From NCBI RefSeq assembly GCF_001889165.1, contig NZ_CP016020.1:3322501-3386500 (forward strand): a stretch of 64,000 nt of DNA. Reading direction: 5' to 3'. This stretch comes from Bacillus weihaiensis (GTDB taxonomy: Bacteria; Bacillota; Bacilli; Bacillales; Bacillaceae). Positions 6,264-44,127 of this stretch are shown here, one piece after another; positions within the stretch are counted from its first letter, which is position 1, and each line of letters opens with the position of its first letter. The notes beneath the pieces were generated by a model. That model saw only the letters and a list, made by a program, of their open reading frames with translations. It ran no database searches and was not told where the DNA came from. Made by a program: the position numbers and the translations under genes.

Positions 6264-7584
6264 GTACCTCTCCTCCTTCATTTCTCCATGGATAGTCAAC
6301 CTTTGTAGTAAACATATGCTTTCGATAGAAGACGTCACTTTTTTCTGACGTACGTGCAGGAAAAAGACCTAATTGGATGAACCGATCCAATAAGGATTCT
6401 TTCCATAATCCTAGTCCAGACAGATTTAACATTTGTTTATAATGTAGTTTCTGATCCTTTTCCATTTGCTGAAAGCTACGATTGCGAATCCGCGGAAATT
6501 TCCGAAATGGCATTGAGTATGCAAGCGCAGCAAGATGACTGGTGTCTAATAAATGTTGGACCTTAGGCTTCCTCACTTTTTCTAACCACTTTAGGTTCGT
6601 CAAAGAGGTTTCACCTGTTTCTTCCATCCAACAGATTAAATCTCCCAATGCATCTGCATCTTGAATGGCCAAATTCATTCCTTCTCCAGCCATTGGATGA
6701 ACACTGTGGGCTGCATCGCCTATAATCACTTTGTTATCCTTACTGTATTCACTAGCATGAAATTGAACGGGAATCATTAATTGAATGTTTCTCCACGAGG
6801 GAATTTGTGTAACATAACCTTTTAAAGCAGGGCATAGTTCAATATATCGTTTGTAAAAAGATTCGATTCCCTCTTCTTTAATTGCTTTATACTCTCCTGA
6901 AGGAATTAAGTAAACAGAACGAACCTCATCATGTGGTAATGGAAAAAGACCAAGAAATGTAGTGGGGGTAGCAATCATTTCCCCTTCTATCATGGATGTA
7001 GGTCTAGGAAACGTAACAGTCAAGAAATGATGGTCATATCGTTTTTCCTCGATATCCAGATTCATGGCTTTACGTACAAGCGACTTTCTCCCTTCAGCTC
7101 CTACTATATATTTGGCGTGAATGAATATCGTTTCTCCATCGTGCTTCACCACTCCTGTCGTATCGTCACTAAATTCAACAAAACGAGCGGGCTGATAATA
7201 ATGAAAGGTAGGGTAGGTCATCGCCTTTTCCAACAAAATCTCTTTAAGTCGTTCATGTGGAATCATTAGTCCATAGTTAAACACACTGTCAATCACACCA
7301 TAGTTCATAGTGGATATCCCAATCGTCTCAAAAGTACCCTTAACCTTTTTCTTCTCGATCGATTTAATCGTTTTCAGAGGATGGCCACTTTCCTTCACAT
7401 AAGAAAAAACTTGAAGTCTATCAAAGATTTGCAAGCTTTTCGGCTGCAATAATTCTCCTTTATATGTGTGTGCTTGTCCCTTCTGCTGTTCTACTACTGT
7501 GACATCAATTCCACAGCTCGCTAATTTTAAAGCAGTTGTTAAACCACCAACTCCTCCACCAACAATTAACACCTCTGTTCTCAT
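6253..7584 (-). CDS. FAD-dependent monooxygenase (PHBH/UbiH type)
   Basis: This 443-residue flavoprotein shows the group A monooxygenase signature: the Rossmann dinucleotide motif VLIVGGGVGGLTTAL at the N terminus, VGAEGRKSLVRK (the DG-like region) near 165, and the FAD ribityl motif GDAAHSVHPMAGEGMNLAIQ near 285. Such enzymes use NAD(P)H and oxygen to hydroxylate aromatic or quinone-like substrates. The gene overlaps the downstream methyltransferase by 11 bp. The pair could tailor a small secondary metabolite or a quinone-like compound; nothing in the sequence defines which. No signal peptide is present. Confidence 0.9.
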   Translation of the reverse strand: MRTEVLIVGGGVGGLTTALKLASCGIDVTVVEQQKGQAHTYKGELLQPKSLQIFDRLQVFSYVKESGHPLKTIKSIEKKKVKGTFETIGISTMNYGVIDSVFNYGLMIPHERLKEILLEKAMTYPTFHYYQPARFVEFSDDTTGVVKHDGETIFIHAKYIVGAEGRKSLVRKAMNLDIEEKRYDHHFLTVTFPRPTSMIEGEMIATPTTFLGLFPLPHDEVRSVYLIPSGEYKAIKEEGIESFYKRYIELCPALKGYVTQIPSWRNIQLMIPVQFHASEYSKDNKVIIGDAAHSVHPMAGEGMNLAIQDADALGDLICWMEETGETSLTNLKWLEKVRKPKVQHLLDTSHLAALAYSMPFRKFPRIRNRSFQQMEKDQKLHYKQMLNLSGLGLWKESLLDRFIQLGLFPARTSEKSDVFYRKHMFTTKVDYPWRNEGGEVHGH

Positions 7585-7763
7585 ACTCCACCTCTTTCAC
7601 CTGCTGTTTGATGCTTGTATTCCCTCTTTATAATGAATAGAAACGGATGAACTCTCTTTTTAGAGCACATGCTAAGCATGTTAATCAACTTATCAGTAGT
7701 CAGCGATTTGTGAATAGTAGGATAACATAAGCAAAAATTAGGAAGGACTACACATATAAAAGA

Positions 7764-7793
7764 ACCCTCCTAACATGTTTTGCTAAGGAGGGT
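7764..7793 (-). terminator. Hairpin in the 7.6-7.9 kb gap
   Basis: ACCCTCC...GGAGGGT arms enclose a 16-base loop. It lies downstream of the small minus-strand gene at 7894-8079 and is a plausible transcription end for it, although only a weak T-rich run follows on the minus strand. The rest of 7585-7893 contains no gene; it should hold the promoter of the monooxygenase/methyltransferase operon. Confidence 0.5.
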
Positions 7794-7893
7794 CTTGTCT
7801 TGATTTGTAATTACATTGCTTCTGGCCTTGTGTACGAACAAATCATCGAAAATTTTACATTAGTTGTTCCAGCAACACGTTTATCTATAGGCA

Positions 7894-8079
7894 TTACTCT
7901 TTACAGGATTCTGCCTTAAATCCAAATCGTTCCAAAAATTCATTATAGGCTTCAATTTTCCCTTCAATTTTAGCTGTCATCTTCTCATCTACGTTTTCTT
8001 CATTTAAACGTTGGCAGTTTTCTTTAATCATCGTACGTAAATAGGAAGCAATGGACGTTTCATTAAAAGTTTCTAACAT
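7894..8079 (-). CDS. Small hypothetical protein
   Basis: The product is 61 residues, starting at ATG 8079, which has AGGAGG seven bases upstream. Fourteen further in-frame codons upstream precede that site and are not counted. It is a charged, probably all-helical soluble protein (for example ENVDEKMTAKIEGKIEAYNE) with a single Cys near each end. I do not recognise the family. It stands alone between two gaps of about 300 bp. Confidence 0.65.
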   Translation of the reverse strand: MLETFNETSIASYLRTMIKENCQRLNEENVDEKMTAKIEGKIEAYNEFLERFGFKAESCKE

Positions 8080-8376
8080 GTAGGTTCCTCCTAATTTTTG
8101 GGGTGATCTTTCTCTATCCAACCATTCCCCTTGTACACAATTTGTAAACGATTGAAAGAACAGCTCTTTAGGAAATGGCTATGTTACTATATGATCTTGA
8201 TTGTTTGAATAAGATTCCTAATTGAAGGCATCTGGACTAACTACGTAAAGCGAATGAATCGAACGCAAATCAACAACCTAGCTTAACTACCTAGGAAATG
8301 AAGAAATCGCTTTAATGAAGCTGCATTCTTTTTTATAATAGAATTAATACTGTTTTAACGAAATGAGGAATTCACC

Positions 8377-25856: not shown

Positions 25857-25981
25857 AAGGACTCTATTCGCGATTTTCGGGGCTCTATCCGCGATTACGG
25901 GCTCTCTTTCCGCGATTATTGCCTCTCTTTCCGCGATTATTGCCCCTCTATCCGCGATTATCGCCTCTCTATCCGCGATTC
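25857..25981 (+). repeat. 21-bp tandem array 1 (six units)
   Basis: CGCGATT recurs at exactly 21-bp steps (25869, 25890, 25911, 25932, 25953, 25974). The unit is roughly CTCTNTCCGCGATTATNGC. Downstream comes a tail with AAAATGCGACAAT and TTTTTAAAATTTCAC, shared with array 2. Bases 25627-25856 and 25982-26183 hold no credible gene; the former contains a few degenerate relatives of the unit (for example CTATTCACGAG). Confidence 0.95.
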
Positions 25982-38072: not shown

Positions 38073-38236
38073 ATAATCCCCCACCTTCGTCATCAATTGA
38101 GTCGATTTCTTTATTATTTTTCATTATACCCTAGCAGGCTGCAGAAGTGGATTATAACGTCTTGCACTAAGAAATAGTCAAGGCCGCATAACAACTAGAA
38201 AAGGAATTATATGATAAGATAGAAGAGGAAGCGAAA

Positions 38237-38947
38237 ATGGATGAAAGCCAAAGGAATAGAAAAAGCTTTAACCCTAGTGGTAGAGGTGATAATGTGGCTT
38301 GGAACGCTAAAATATTTGCAGGCTTTCTACTTGAAGGTAATGAGGATGCCGCATGGGAAGCTGCAATGAATGCAATACATTCATATAATAATAGAACACA
38401 GCTTTTTGAAGAGCTCATAACAAAAGCTATGCAGCACATTGGAGAGTTATGGGAAACAGATCAAATCTCTGTTGCAGACGAACATCTTGCAACTTCGACA
38501 TGTGAATATATATTAGCACGATTTCAACATGAGCTTAAACACACACAAACCATCAAGCAGCTTCGTGAAAAAAAAGCAATGTTCATGTGCTTGGAAAATG
38601 AACAGCATGATATTGGACTTAAAATGGTTTCACAAGTTTTTGAGGAATATGGCTGGAAAACACGGTTACTTGGTGCCAATTTGCCTCTAGAGGATGCATT
38701 AAAGGCCGCAGAGAAATGGCAGCCAAGCATAATTGGTCTATCCTTTTCAATATGGTATCACGCTGAGCTTTTATCAACTTACATACACGCTCTTGAGAAG
38801 CTTTCTCATAAGCCAATTGTTATGGTAGGCGGACGTCTATTAGCAAACTATGACTTTACAGCCTATTGCTCAGAAAATACCAAATTATTCCCAACACTTA
38901 CTGAATTGCACAGCTGGCTTTTGAACCATTCATCACAAGGAGTGTAA
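38237..38947 (+). CDS. Cobalamin-binding protein with CarH/LitR-like photosensor signature
   Basis: The 236-residue protein has a four-helix B12-binding cap (about 20-105) and a Rossmann-like B12-binding domain (about 113-230). It contains W72, nine residues, then E82-H83, matching the Wx9EH motif of CarH/LitR photoreceptors. The ligand motif reads E122-Q-H124-DIG, the ExHxxG form used by those photoreceptors to hold adenosylcobalamin. There is no MerR-type DNA-binding domain. Its neighbour, 5 bp downstream, is a PAS-STAS protein, so light (or B12 state) may be passed by protein contact. The photoreceptor role is inferred from motifs. Confidence 0.85.
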   Translation: MDESQRNRKSFNPSGRGDNVAWNAKIFAGFLLEGNEDAAWEAAMNAIHSYNNRTQLFEELITKAMQHIGELWETDQISVADEHLATSTCEYILARFQHELKHTQTIKQLREKKAMFMCLENEQHDIGLKMVSQVFEEYGWKTRLLGANLPLEDALKAAEKWQPSIIGLSFSIWYHAELLSTYIHALEKLSHKPIVMVGGRLLANYDFTAYCSENTKLFPTLTELHSWLLNHSSQGV

Positions 38948-38952
38948 TTGAT

Positions 38953-39699
38953 ATGTCTGACATCAAACATATACCGCTACCTTATTTTATCATTAATCAA
39001 GACCTAACAATCCTTGAGTCTTCACATCAAGCTCATGATCTATTTGGTCATTCCGATAATCTCTTAACATTTATAGATAAGGAAAGCCAAGAAAAAGCAA
39101 AGCGAATCTTAGTGGCAAAAGAAAAGAAATCAACGGAGTTAGTAATGTCCACCTTGGAGTCCTCTTTTGCTTTATTCCAATTAAAAATAAACTGGGTTAA
39201 TGAGAAAGGACATATTGTTTGTATTGAACAGGATGGACGAATTCAACAGCTTATCGATGCCGTTGAAAAACATAGAAAACGATTATCAGATACAAACTTT
39301 GAACTGCTCGACAAAAAAGAGCAGCTAGAGGAATCTTTAGCAAAAATCATGGATTTATCAGCACCATCAATCACATTAACCGATCAAATAATACTCGTTC
39401 CTCTTTTCGGAGATTTAGAGAAGGAGCTTATAGATAAGAACAACCTTAAAATCCTTCAGAAAATAAAACATAGTCCAATTGATAAGGTATTATTTGATTT
39501 TCATGGAGTGGGTGAAATTACAACCGAAGGAATAAATGAATTACGCCAGTTAACTACCTCCATTGAATTGATGGGAGCTAGCTCCTATATTATTGGAGTC
39601 AAGCCAGCCCATGCAAAAGTAATCCACCAAACCTCTATTGAAACTGGAACAGATTACTTAAGAAATCTAAACGAAGCAATCCGCTCCTTTGTCATCTAA
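38953..39699 (+). CDS. PAS-STAS protein (RsbR-like)
   Basis: The 248-residue protein starts five bases after the B12 protein ends, with AAGGAGTG near the shared junction. The N-terminal part (about 5-90) resembles a PAS domain (PLPYFIINQDLTILESSHQA). A coiled coil spans about 95-135. The C-terminal STAS domain (140-248) has VLFDFHGVGEITTEGINELR, where the Thr pair matches the phosphorylation region of RsbR/RsbS-type stressosome proteins. It could be a stressosome-linked partner that relays the state of the B12 protein to general stress control. No kinase or RsbT is nearby. Confidence 0.85.
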   Translation: MSDIKHIPLPYFIINQDLTILESSHQAHDLFGHSDNLLTFIDKESQEKAKRILVAKEKKSTELVMSTLESSFALFQLKINWVNEKGHIVCIEQDGRIQQLIDAVEKHRKRLSDTNFELLDKKEQLEESLAKIMDLSAPSITLTDQIILVPLFGDLEKELIDKNNLKILQKIKHSPIDKVLFDFHGVGEITTEGINELRQLTTSIELMGASSYIIGVKPAHAKVIHQTSIETGTDYLRNLNEAIRSFVI

Positions 39700-39840
39700 A
39701 GTCTAGTCGTTGTGAGAGTAAGTTATCTGGTCCTATCTGGTCCCTTGGTCCCTACTATGCTTTTGCGCTTTAATGGAGTGGGGGCCAGGCACCTTTAACC
39801 GCGCATCGGGGGGAGGGGCGGAAATTGTCGGTTTTAGTCT

Positions 39841-39978
39841 AATCGCGGATAGAACACTCATAATCGCGGATAGAGCCCCCATAATCGCGGATAGAACTCC
39901 CATAATCGCGGATAGAACCCCCATTATCGCGGATAGACCCCTCATAATCGCGGATAGACCCCCATAATCGCGGGATAC
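39841..39978 (-). repeat. 21-bp tandem array 3 (seven units, opposite orientation)
   Basis: ATCGCGGAT recurs at 39842, 39863, 39884, 39905, 39926, 39947 and 39967; the last step is 20 bp and that unit is imperfect. The unit is the reverse complement of that in array 1 (TATCCGCGATTAT). In the repeat orientation the flank beyond the array contains AAAACCGACAATTT, again like the tails of arrays 1 and 2. A GGCCAGGCACC motif, also found in the 120-bp repeat, lies directly beside it at 39784. Bases 39979-40231 contain no gene. Confidence 0.93.
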
Positions 39979-40231
39979 AACCTTACCTCATCAAGAAATA
40001 CATCTACAAATACCCAATCAAGGCTCTGACCAGCCTAAATTTCAATAAAAATTTGGATAGATTCCTATCTTTTAAGAGCATGTAACCTACCACTCACAAA
40101 ATTAGTACGTTTTTACTTCTTGAGCTTTATTCTCTCATTTCTATTTAATAAGAACCCGTTAAACACCGATTTACCACATTTCCACTCCGCTCAGCTTACT
40201 CAATATCCACCCATCCATCCACCCATCCTTA

Positions 40232-40342: not shown

Positions 40343-41008
40343 TTAGGTTTTCAAAACCGTATAGACAACCAATCTCTCCTCATGTGTGCCTTTCTCCCTG
40401 TTAAAGGATCCGGTACATGTAATGAGGTTTAATTGACTTCGATAGGAGAAACCAAAGATTTTTTGTACTGGTGCGGTTTCCGTTTCAAAGCTTTTTTTAT
40501 CATATACGACAAAGGTAAGAGTCTTTCCATTTTCATCCTGGACAGTTACTTCATCACCAACAGATAACTGATCTAATCGATAGAAAATAGCCGGACCAGT
40601 TTTACTATCCACATGCCCTGCTAAAACAGCATTTCCTTGTTCTCCGGGCATAATTCCTTCTTTAAACCAACCAACTTGGTTAAAATCCTCCGGAACACCC
40701 ATTTGCCCATTATCAAGTAAACCTACATCTTCTATGTTTGCTTCTACCTTAATCGAGGGAATAGAGATTGTCGTTGGTTTTATTCCCTCTCTTTGATCGC
40801 GTATAATGGGTTTGTCATTTTTAGTAGTCATAGGTGTTATCGATGACGTTTTTGTTTGCTGGCCCTCTTCCTTTTCCTCTACGGCCTTTTCTTCTATTCC
40901 TGTTATATCTGAACCAATTTCTTCATTGGTCGTTTCTTTGGTTACTTCCGGCTCTTGACAAGCTGATAAAACAAGAATGACAAAGATACTTATGGCTATT
41001 CGCCACAT
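40343..41008 (-). CDS. Class F sortase, lipoprotein-type
   Basis: The 221-residue protein has a lipobox (LVLSAC, Cys17) after a short hydrophobic signal, a charged linker to about residue 75, and a class F sortase domain. Catalytic residues are His132 (LAGHVDS), Cys198 (LITCTGS) and Arg212 (ERLVVYT). Sortases link LPXTG-like proteins to the cell wall. Start ATG 41008 is preferred to 41014 for spacing from GAGGTG. The gene follows the surface-protein gene by 26 bp on the same strand, whose MPKTG motif is the obvious substrate. A predicted lipid anchor on a sortase is slightly unusual. Confidence 0.9.
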   Translation of the reverse strand: MWRIAISIFVILVLSACQEPEVTKETTNEEIGSDITGIEEKAVEEKEEGQQTKTSSITPMTTKNDKPIIRDQREGIKPTTISIPSIKVEANIEDVGLLDNGQMGVPEDFNQVGWFKEGIMPGEQGNAVLAGHVDSKTGPAIFYRLDQLSVGDEVTVQDENGKTLTFVVYDKKSFETETAPVQKIFGFSYRSQLNLITCTGSFNREKGTHEERLVVYTVLKT

Positions 41009-41034
41009 ATGCATACACCTCAGCTAGTACTCTA

Positions 41035-42390
41035 TTAGTCTTGCTGTACTTTTTTCCTAATAACTACACCCATGCTAGCAAGAATGGCTAAAAGGATACC
41101 ATAAACAGCCCATTCGCCTGACATGTTGCTTGCAGTACCACCCATACCTGTTTTTGGCATTTCTTCTGGCATCATCATTTTGAATTTATCAGGAAATTGA
41201 TCGACAAATGCTCCAGACAATCCTTTTGCTGGGTTTAACATATGTGCATAAGCTTCACGAATGGAGTCGTATGCTTTTTCATAGTCACCTTCAACATAAG
41301 AGTCAAAAGCCATAACTAATTGTCCCACATGCATTTGTAATCCTTCAGCTAATGCGTCTGATTTAAGACGGCCATCCGTTGCTGTTTCTAAAAAGGATGA
41401 AAACTCTGCTCTATATCCATCTAGGTTTTCTAGTGCCTCTTTTTTCGCTGCTTCATCATTTGCCCCGGTTGCTTTTACATAATCAACAAAGAAACCAATA
41501 TGATTCGACCACATCGTCTTAAATTGCTCTCCTGCTTCATCCCCATATACGGAAGCAATGGCTGCTGATAAATCTTCTGTATTCGTATTAAGTGCATTTG
41601 CTGCCGCTTCAAAATCATCAGCACCGTCCGCCCCTTGCTGCATCGCTACAACTGCTAATCCTGCATGCTCTGTTAATAAATGATTTAAAGTTGCTCGTAA
41701 ATCTACAGCTGGTGTAACTGCCATCGTTGATTCGAATTTTTCTGGGAATTGATCTGTAATAGCATTTGATAATCCTTTTGCTACCATATGCATATGTGAA
41801 ATCGCTTCTCTTTCATATTCGTAGGCTTTATCAAAATCCTCTGCTAAGTATGAATCAAACGCACCCACTAGTTGGTTAACATGCATTTGTAATCCTTCTG
41901 CAAGACCACTTGCTTCTAGTCTCTCTCCAGTAGCCGTTTCTAGGAACTGTGAAAATTTCTCACGGTAAGTATCTAAATTAGTTAACGCTTCTTCTTTTTT
42001 CGCTTCATCATTTTCTGCTGTTGCTGTTACATAATCAACGAAAAAGCCAATATGTTCTTCCCACATTCCATTAAATTGCTCCCCAGCTTCCTCACCGTAT
42101 ACAGAAGCAATGGCTGCTGATAATTCTTCTGTATTCTCACTTAATGCTCCAACAGATGCTTCAAAATCCTTTGCACCCAGTGCACCGTTTCTCATAACCT
42201 CAACAGCTAAGTATGCGTGCTCACTAAGTAAATGACCTAATGTTGTACGAAGCTCTGCTGCTGGTGTTGCTACTGCTTCAGATCCGCTCATCATCGTATG
42301 ACTTGCATGATCTGCTGCAAAAGCCCCTTGTACTGGTACTAATAAAGATAAACTTAATGGTACTGCTAAAAGTGTTGGTTTCATTTTCAT
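41035..42390 (-). CDS. Sortase-anchored surface protein with two His-rich helical repeats
   Basis: The 451-residue protein has a signal peptide (1-25, ending GAFA) and two homologous domains of about 170 residues (about 45-215 and 228-400). A sorting signal follows: MPKTG at 411-415, a hydrophobic segment (429-444) and RKK. Each domain is all-helical, with His at matching places: H53, H58, H113, H170, H199 in the first and H237, H242, H297, H354, H383 in the second, a constant offset of 184. This suggests a hemerythrin- or ferritin-like metal-binding bundle. Start ATG 42390 follows AAAGGGGAAA; 67 earlier codons of open frame have no site. An ECF-type promoter lies upstream. Confidence 0.85.
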   Translation of the reverse strand: MKMKPTLLAVPLSLSLLVPVQGAFAADHASHTMMSGSEAVATPAAELRTTLGHLLSEHAYLAVEVMRNGALGAKDFEASVGALSENTEELSAAIASVYGEEAGEQFNGMWEEHIGFFVDYVTATAENDEAKKEEALTNLDTYREKFSQFLETATGERLEASGLAEGLQMHVNQLVGAFDSYLAEDFDKAYEYEREAISHMHMVAKGLSNAITDQFPEKFESTMAVTPAVDLRATLNHLLTEHAGLAVVAMQQGADGADDFEAAANALNTNTEDLSAAIASVYGDEAGEQFKTMWSNHIGFFVDYVKATGANDEAAKKEALENLDGYRAEFSSFLETATDGRLKSDALAEGLQMHVGQLVMAFDSYVEGDYEKAYDSIREAYAHMLNPAKGLSGAFVDQFPDKFKMMMPEEMPKTGMGGTASNMSGEWAVYGILLAILASMGVVIRKKVQQD

Positions 42391-42425
42391 CTTTTCATTT
42401 CCCCTTTCAAAATTTTCTACTAAGC

Positions 42426-42452
42426 TAACGAGGGGAAAAATAAAGTGGATCA
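42426..42452 (-). promoter_or_regulatory. Putative ECF sigma promoter of the surface-protein/sortase operon
   Basis: On the minus strand TGATCC (42447-42452) is separated by exactly 16 bases from CGTTA (42426-42430), inside a T-rich spacer. This has the form of ECF promoters (conserved -35, CGT-type -10) and lies 35 bp before the start codon. It is the probable target of the ECF factor encoded 1.2 kb away. Confidence 0.6.
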
Positions 42453-42595
42453 CTTTTTTAAAAAGTTTTTTTAATTTTTTTATGACGTAGGAGTTTTTCA
42501 TCCTTTTGCTGCTATTTAAAAGGGCTTTTAACTTAATAAAATTCATCGCCTTCCAGTTCGAGGAAATCAAGCACCTAAACCATTTAAACAATAAA

Positions 42596-42635
42596 AAGCC
42601 TGAGCTGCATGTTCACCAGCTCAGGCTTCTCATTA
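42596..42635 (-). terminator. Terminator of the 43-residue gene
   Basis: AAGCCTGAGCTG/CAGCTCAGGCTT with a loop of about eight bases is followed by a T-run on the minus strand. It separates the regulators from the surface-protein operon. Confidence 0.88.
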
Positions 42636-42640
42636 TTTCA

Positions 42641-42772
42641 TTATTTCTTTGACGTTTTTTCATTATGTTGTTTTTCAGCTAAATCGTTGCCAAAATCTTT
42701 ATCTGTGTTAATCGCGTCACTTGCTTTTTTCATTCGCTTTTGTTGATTTTTATGACTATCTCGCTGTACCAT
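42641..42772 (-). CDS. Small basic hypothetical protein
   Basis: ATG 42772, with AGAGGGA upstream, opens a 43-codon frame. The product is Lys/Gln-rich at the N terminus (QRDSHKNQQKRMKKASDAIN) and hydrophilic throughout. A terminator follows right after. I do not recognise it; it lies within the sigma factor locus on the same strand and may belong to that transcript. Confidence 0.6.
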   Translation of the reverse strand: MVQRDSHKNQQKRMKKASDAINTDKDFGNDLAEKQHNEKTSKK

Positions 42773-42839
42773 TTGTATCCCTCTTTTCTTAAGCTATTCA
42801 CCATAATAGTGTAATCAAAAAGAGGAAAATCATTCTTTT

Positions 42840-43571
42840 TTAAAGTTTTCCTGCTAAAACAATTTCTCCTGCAGGTACAGGGAGATTTTCTTCTTTCTCA
42901 ACCGTAATAGCGATTGTGTCCCATTTCCCCTCTACTTCCTCTAAAGAATATGTTAAGGTTCCTTGTCCTGAGTCATTTGGTTGGAAAGCTCCTGCGGGAT
43001 ATGGCTGTTCGCCTTCAATGACCCAAACTTGATACACTTCATTTTCACTCAGTGTCGGTAGGTTCGATGCTTGTAGTAGCAGTGATTGATTTCCTTCCTC
43101 ATTCAGTAAGGACGCAATAGCTACCGCTTGCTCACCTTCTGTAGTAGGTAATAAGGTTACTTGTGAAGCTTGAATCATTTCACCACTTTCTGCAATTGGT
43201 TTTTCGTTTCTCTCAGTAAGCAGATAGATGTTCGTGATAAGAGAAACAAGTAAAGCAGCTGCAATTGTTGGCATAATAAAACGTGATCTCTTGGTTTTTA
43301 CAGGTTCCACATCTGTCTTTGGTTGAAAATCTATTACTTTTGCGTCTTGTTCTTCCTCAAAGATCTCTGCGAATATTCTTGCTTTCATTTCTTTAGGTAC
43401 TTCAACTGGCTCCGATAGAAAAGGGAGGTCTTCTGTTAACATAGTAAGTTCTTCAAGTTCACTTTGACATTCGGAACAGGTGCTTAAGTGTTGTTCAAAT
43501 TTCTGCATTTCCTCTTTTGTCAACGTTCTATTGTAATAATCAATAAGATTATAGCAAGCTTCGTTATTCAT
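42840..43571 (-). CDS. Anti-sigma factor (zinc-finger and RskA type)
   Basis: The 243-residue protein has an N-terminal zinc-binding anti-sigma domain (H28, C32, C35 in FEQHLSTCSEC), a single membrane helix (about 98-118) and an extracellular RskA domain (VYQVWVIEGEQPYPAGAF near 183). Such proteins hold an ECF sigma factor inactive until a signal triggers proteolysis. The gene overlaps the sigma gene by 8 bp, the usual coupled arrangement. The outer RskA domain may sense envelope or redox signals. Confidence 0.93.
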   Translation of the reverse strand: MNNEACYNLIDYYNRTLTKEEMQKFEQHLSTCSECQSELEELTMLTEDLPFLSEPVEVPKEMKARIFAEIFEEEQDAKVIDFQPKTDVEPVKTKRSRFIMPTIAAALLVSLITNIYLLTERNEKPIAESGEMIQASQVTLLPTTEGEQAVAIASLLNEEGNQSLLLQASNLPTLSENEVYQVWVIEGEQPYPAGAFQPNDSGQGTLTYSLEEVEGKWDTIAITVEKEENLPVPAGEIVLAGKL

Positions 43572-44127
43572 GTGATGCCCCTCCTTCCTTATCTAGCATT
43601 TTCCTAAGATGGTTTAAAGCCATTCGTATCCTTCCCTTTACGGTTCCTAATGGTAATTCACATTGATCAGCTATTTTCTGCTGACTTAAGCCTTTAAAGT
43701 AAAATAAGTCGATAATTTGCTGTTGATCTATTTTTAATTGATTCACCGCTTTCTGGATGACTTGCTTTTGTTCGTTCCATTCTGCCTTTTCCTCTACGGT
43801 TTTTCCTTGTTGAGTTAACGCATCTTTATCAATTATTTCCTCATGTGTATGTCGTTTTCGTTTACGTATCTCATCAATTGCTTTATTGCGTGTAATGGTT
43901 AATAGCCAGGATGAAAATTTCCCTTTCTTTTCATCATAAACATTCGTTCCATTCCAAAGCTTTAAAAAGACATCTTGGACAATTTCTTCTGTTAATGCGG
44001 AATCATTTGTCATTTTATAAGCAAAGGAATAGATCAATCTTTCGTACCGATCATACAGTGCCTCAAACGCCACACGATCTTTATTGATTGTCTCTACATA
44101 TAATACTGCATCGTCCTTCTCAATCAT
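43564..44127 (-). CDS. ECF RNA polymerase sigma factor
   Basis: The 187-residue protein has sigma region 2 (ALYDRYERLIYSFAYKMT, then EEIVQDVFLKLWNG) and region 4 (GLSQQKIADQCELPLGTVKG, the DNA-binding helix pair). It belongs to the ECF group regulated by RskA-type anti-sigma factors. Target genes probably include the surface protein and sortase downstream, given the locus and the TGATCC-N16-CGTTA element there. ATG 44127 follows AAAAGGAG. Confidence 0.94.
   Translation of the reverse strand: MIEKDDAVLYVETINKDRVAFEALYDRYERLIYSFAYKMTNDSALTEEIVQDVFLKLWNGTNVYDEKKGKFSSWLLTITRNKAIDEIRKRKRHTHEEIIDKDALTQQGKTVEEKAEWNEQKQVIQKAVNQLKIDQQQIIDLFYFKGLSQQKIADQCELPLGTVKGRIRMALNHLRKMLDKEGGASHE

Follow-up and report, generated by a model that had tools for sequence, protein, structure and literature searches.

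The question raised by this locus, which lies in a 64,000-nucleotide stretch of the Bacillus weihaiensis genome (contig NZ_CP016020.1, positions 3,322,501 to 3,386,500, hereafter "the window"), is what a B12-binding protein resembling the CarH/LitR light-sensing repressors, but devoid of their DNA-binding domain, might be doing directly ahead of a gene for a PAS-STAS protein. The answer that we hold to be somewhat probable is that the two products would act as sensor and receiver in a split photocobilin that draws on a photoglobin in trans and has the stressosome and SigB as its output. An earlier note, made from the letters of this DNA, had singled out the two open reading frames (ORFs) as a candidate B12 photoreceptor and its stress-protein partner; their coordinates and the five bases separating them were confirmed in the window, and the observation was right and its reading largely so, the system being larger than two genes.

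38294..38947, forward strand: stand-alone B12-binding protein of the CarH/photocobilin type (PF02607 and PF02310, PDB sequence matches, pocket residues, conserved ribosome-binding site).
38953..39699, forward strand: PAS-linker-STAS protein, the probable receiver and output partner (STAS match, STAS half of YtvA_fam below cut-off, RsbR and YtvA in the PDB, AlphaFold2 (AF2) model and Foldseek).

The B12 protein consists of a helical cap (B12-binding_2, E 8.6e-13) and a Rossmann domain (B12-binding, E 3.6e-15), both above their Pfam cut-offs and with nothing else above cut-off; no helix-turn-helix or MerR-type DNA-binding domain was reported in the Pfam and NCBIfam scans, as the earlier note had held. 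Its best sequence matches in the PDB were 8j2x, 8j2w and 8jbs (a Saccharothrix photocobilin and the light-active CtMerR), followed by a GGDEF protein (8j2y), methionine synthases and CarH. The Wx9EH and ExHxxG motifs shared with the CarH/LitR repressors are present as W72-x9-E82-H83 and E122-x-H124-x-x-G127, and are not due to chance, because W72, E82-H83, E122 and H124 are identical in all 80 family loci compared. The W and EH of CarH and photocobilins touch the adenosyl group. The methionine synthase and the methylmalonyl-CoA mutase of the same genome have other residues at these places, and its own MerR-B12 protein, a separate gene product, retains both. A CarH-type B12 pocket is a supported prediction for this protein. 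The MerR-B12 protein (L031:3509-4447) reaches 146 bits with the CarH model, below the cut-off of 400.

Pairing with a PAS-type signalling gene is strongly conserved in the family. In a survey sample of 299 genomes of the order, the B12 gene (called at E 1e-20) was found in 132, and among 80 loci the gene after it encoded a PAS-STAS protein in 68, a PAS-histidine kinase in four, a PAS domain with a short tail in five and no PAS protein in three, so that the conserved pairing that had been proposed as a check is indeed seen (any PAS directly next in 77/80). An adjoining PAS-STAS gene was likewise found in all nine named relatives (Metabacillus, Domibacillus, Rossellomorea and Saliterribacillus), the frame being broken in L003, and the window's genome encodes a further pair, in which the partner is a PAS-short protein (L023:6795-7481 and 7488-8129). 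In an 80-row tree, which is a quick one with some long branches, the window's B12 protein groups with the Metabacillus loci, and the partner type needs four changes, the adjacency of photoglobin ten. As the PAS half is the part common to all three partner types, it is likelier to be a receiver for the B12 protein than the second sensor that had been suggested, for which no evidence was found.

The co-occurrence of the B12 gene and photoglobin is our main ground for proposing that the pair works with a photoglobin, although none is nearby; the one in this genome (L033:6943-7311) lies far from the pair and outside the window, encoded together with an IsdG/HmuQ-like heme monooxygenase. Of the 299 genomes, 132 have the B12 gene, 124 photoglobin, 115 both and 158 neither, and by genus (n = 117) the counts are 41 with both, four and two with a single one and 70 with neither, in tests whose p-values ignore descent. 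The two genes are adjacent in 44/80 loci. A photoglobin fold with a predicted bilin pocket is supported by the fold of a homologue (L008) and by conserved C/D/N/H residues, and the motif here is C-x-E-D, the one described for photoglobins being CXQD (PMC10151467). In 44 of 53 photoglobins a Cys stands where phycobilins are attached, and the bilin may thus be bound covalently. As to the monooxygenase, the catalytic triad of the IsdG/HmuQ type is Asn-Trp-His (PMC6018153); His was found in 51/52 sequences, Trp in 45/52 and Asn in 9/52, with H at the Asn site (placed by eye) in 24/52, and the genome's own enzyme has H5, W65 and H75. Monooxygenase-photoglobin-B12 sets without a downstream PAS gene were seen at L097, L102 and L058, the last with a PAS-like match upstream.

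The partner protein divides into three parts.

38953..39234, forward strand: PAS-type domain, residues 1-94 (AF2 predicted local distance difference test score (pLDDT) 78-93 over residues 11-90; Foldseek hits among LOV and heme PAS domains).
39235..39363, forward strand: helical linker, residues 95-137, of low model confidence (AF2; conserved leucines).
39367..39642, forward strand: STAS domain, residues 139-230, with K157 and T191 at the RsbR T171/T205 sites (Pfam, alignment).

The PAS-STAS assignment of the earlier note holds, the STAS domain being barely above its Pfam cut-off (23.2 versus 22.6 bits) and the PAS domain, which Pfam did not report, being called from the predicted fold. Across the 54 partners aligned, whatever their output type, P8, K48 and E62 of the PAS domain never vary, and the linker leucines L111 and L118 are kept in 50 and 49 of them. 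The STAS half is nearest to YtvA and RsbR by NCBIfam, PDB sequence matches and Foldseek (top match of the AF2 model 2mwg, YtvA); YtvA_fam gives 57 bits (cut-off 250), with the STAS half alone. A LOV domain was considered for the PAS part and rejected, as the flavin-binding Cys motif NCRFLQ is absent by eye. By analogy with AerR, modelled on the linker helix of CrtJ, we infer that the PAS domain plus linker would receive the B12 protein.

RsbS is present in 230/299 genomes and RsbT in 235/299; among the 132 genomes with the B12 gene RsbS is found in 128, and in 56/56 of those with a PAS-STAS locus examined. The four lacking RsbS, which are also missing from the RsbT genome list, all have the PAS-kinase form (RsbS being present in 3/7 kinase-type genomes). 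As every PAS-STAS genome sampled has RsbS and the RsbS-less ones with the B12 gene use a kinase output, the stressosome link gains some support.

A mechanism can be proposed from these data, in which the pairing of the genes, their domains, the conserved pocket, the co-occurrence and the fold matches are observed, and the chromophores, the light response, the contacts and the stressosome output are predicted. The B12 protein would hold adenosylcobalamin (AdoCbl) between the helical cap and the Rossmann domain and lose the adenosyl group in green light, as the CarH/photocobilin residues suggest; photoglobin, to judge by its co-occurrence, the operons of relatives and its fold, would dock on it in trans and broaden the colour range, the bilin possibly being made by the heme monooxygenase. 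The light-driven change would reach the neighbour's PAS domain and linker helix by contact, and the STAS domain would then act, YtvA-like, as part of the RsbR-RsbS-RsbT stressosome or upon it, and thereby on SigB; in relatives the same PAS is followed by a histidine kinase or by a short helical tail.

Several results weigh against this split-photocobilin reading, and they are considered here together with its rivals. The AF2 model of the partner is middling (mean pLDDT 74, predicted template-modelling (TM) score 0.48), its superposition on YtvA as a whole is poor (root-mean-square deviation 16.8, TM 0.41), RsbS is common anyway, and the four B12-gene genomes lacking it are of one family, so that the contrast may reflect a single event. 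The RsbR-like Thr residues of the earlier note fared only partly well: the partner was aligned with this genome's RsbR and RsbS to locate the RsbT target sites of RsbR, T171 and T205, where it has K157 and T191, and Thr was found in just 2/45 and 5/45 STAS-type partners, respectively, so that an RsbR-like phospho-switch was discarded as a feature of the family. The STAS partner might then work outside the stressosome, as a separate partner switch or a scaffold, with SigB not its target; this we regard as a serious, if minority, possibility, in keeping with the unconserved phospho-Thr sites and with the kinase or short tail that can replace STAS as an output. Against it stand the kinship of the STAS half with YtvA and RsbR, the RsbS found in every PAS-STAS genome sampled, and the YtvA-like protein of this genome, which likewise lacks these Thr residues (Glu at both sites), whereas the four RsbR-type proteins examined have Thr at both. 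A 152-aa STAS protein with little ahead of its STAS domain is also encoded in the genome (L024:5690-6148), with E and I at the two sites.

The light response of the B12 protein and its chromophores are predictions from sequence. The published light signature of cobalamin domains (SignatureFinder, PMC11796333) is GxxW, EH, GxxH and GxxxP; three of the four elements are present (G69-W72, E82-H83 and G146-P150), and GxxH is replaced by N121-E-Q-H124, Gly being found there in just 17/80 loci. The residue after W, a His in TtCarH, is E73 here; the light-active CtMerR and photocobilins likewise do without this His. The genome's second B12 gene (L023:6795-8129) has the full GxxW/EH/GxxH/GxxxP set and stands beside a PAS-like short-tail protein without STAS. 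Photoglobin, too, is an imperfect companion: it went undetected in 17 genomes with the B12 gene (the reverse in nine), none was found within 6 kb either side of the B12 gene in the five closest (Metabacillus) loci, for which the flanks alone were covered, and the monooxygenase may make no bilin, given that the catalytic Asn of IsdG is N in just 9/52; the three loci lacking a downstream PAS gene belong here as well. The same complex might instead sense the form of cobalamin, the redox state or the AdoCbl supply, and report that to the PAS-STAS protein. The conserved pocket argues more directly for cobalamin binding than for light sensing, GxxH is missing, and an AdoCbl enzyme is encoded in this genome as well (L014, methylmalonyl-CoA mutase-like); nevertheless, the adenosyl-contacting W and EH are invariant, light accounts better for the linked genes of a bilin-type globin and a heme monooxygenase, and we consider this alternative unlikely. 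That the B12 protein is a methyltransferase-type corrinoid carrier (MtaC/MtgC-like) is highly improbable, the MtgC, MtaC and pyl_corrinoid matches being weak and far under cut-off (MtgC 38 bits, cut-off 370), whereas the best model is CarH (46 bits, cut-off 400, matching from position 91 onward), W/EH is conserved, none of the nine neighbour genes scanned is a methyltransferase and a PAS-type signalling gene follows in nearly all loci.

As for known systems, a free-standing B12 photoreceptor with a partner-protein output is not new: the pairing with PAS-STAS is indeed an output different from that of the DNA-acting CarH, as had been argued, but AerR-CrtJ (PMC9144470) and SasPcob (PMC10979010) already act on partners. 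In AerR-CrtJ/PpsR, too, the partner is a PAS protein, touched in the model at the linker helix beside its PAS domain; that partner, however, binds DNA and regulates photosynthesis genes, and a photoglobin is not mentioned in the part of PMC9144470 available. In photocobilins (SasPcob, AbDPcob), the B12 domain and the globin share one chain, whereas here the genes are separate (far apart in this genome), the partner is PAS-STAS, and most globins have a Cys at the place of the attaching one that photocobilins lack (PMC10979010). For the BBAG-2 bilin-binding globins, too, the globin genes go together with genes for B12-binding proteins and heme oxygenases; the bacteria in which they were described are different ones, Myxococcales included, and STAS, Bacill- and Firmicutes go unmentioned in the accessible text (PMC10151467). 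YtvA (LOV-STAS) and RsbR have the same sensor-linker-STAS layout, but YtvA has its own LOV domain, whereas here light sensing would fall to a separate protein. No report of this gene set was recognised, by title, opening of the abstract or passages, in the literature on photocobilin, photoglobin and B12/STAS/stressosome/SigB in Bacillales, which is no proof that none exists. Schneider et al. 2022, in a paper on photoglobin, reportedly connect it with B12 domains and with signalling systems, and this operon may be shown there.

The pair makes up a small separate operon, flanked by a divergent YitT-type membrane protein gene and a convergent sortase gene, with the following signals.

38210..38215, forward strand: TATGAT, a -10-like element partly conserved in the alignment of relatives (the promoter scan overall being no better than shuffles).
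38283..38289, forward strand: GAGGTGA, the conserved ribosome-binding site of the B12 gene (alignment with five Metabacillus loci).
38937..38942, forward strand: AAGGAG, the ribosome-binding site of the PAS-STAS gene (sequence).

The longest B12 ORF opens at ATG 38237, as had been noted, but the protein probably starts at GTG 38294 (217 aa), because GAGGTGA is conserved just before this GTG (the aligned codon being ATG in the five Metabacillus loci) and the DNA 5' of it aligns poorly with them. Sigma-70 promoter and terminator scans did no better than shuffles, and of the seven matches in the window to the SigB promoter pattern GTTT-GGGWAW, none precedes the pair (at least seven were obtained in 11/100 shuffles). 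Neither protein had a PADLOC match (defence systems) at E 0.01; with regard to mobile elements, the genome's own photoglobin had no phage match at E 1e-5, and the L008 B12 protein had one distant plasmid match at E 1e-15 (Ilyobacter, 31% identity). Elsewhere in the window, genes for an extracytoplasmic function sigma factor and an RskA-type anti-sigma factor lie at 40343-44127, close to those for a sortase and for a surface protein whose end looks LPXTG-like by eye, and a tandem 21-bp repeat, TAATCGCGGATAGAACCCCCA, is found at 39840-39982 in 6.8 copies (and at 25884-25979), its unit ATCGCGGATAGA occurring nine times in the window versus 0.01 expected.

Taken more broadly, and put forward tentatively as a possibility that we doubt somewhat more than we believe, these loci may represent split photoreceptors with two chromophores, a family found widely in the order, in which an AdoCbl protein, a separate photoglobin (perhaps with a covalent bilin) with its own heme-opening enzyme, and one conserved PAS receiver would be combined with exchangeable outputs (STAS/stressosome, histidine kinase or short tail), giving SigB a light input besides the LOV proteins. 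If so, nearly half of the order's sampled genomes (132/299) would have a light sensor of the B12 kind on which no experiment was found in the literature searched, photocobilins would be given a partner and a pathway as well as hosts that are easy to grow, and optogenetics would gain parts with exchangeable outputs. The B12 sensor would then most probably feed the general stress response, photoglobin being supplied in trans, which suggests a widespread, as yet predicted, way for relatives of Bacillus to convert light into stress signalling.
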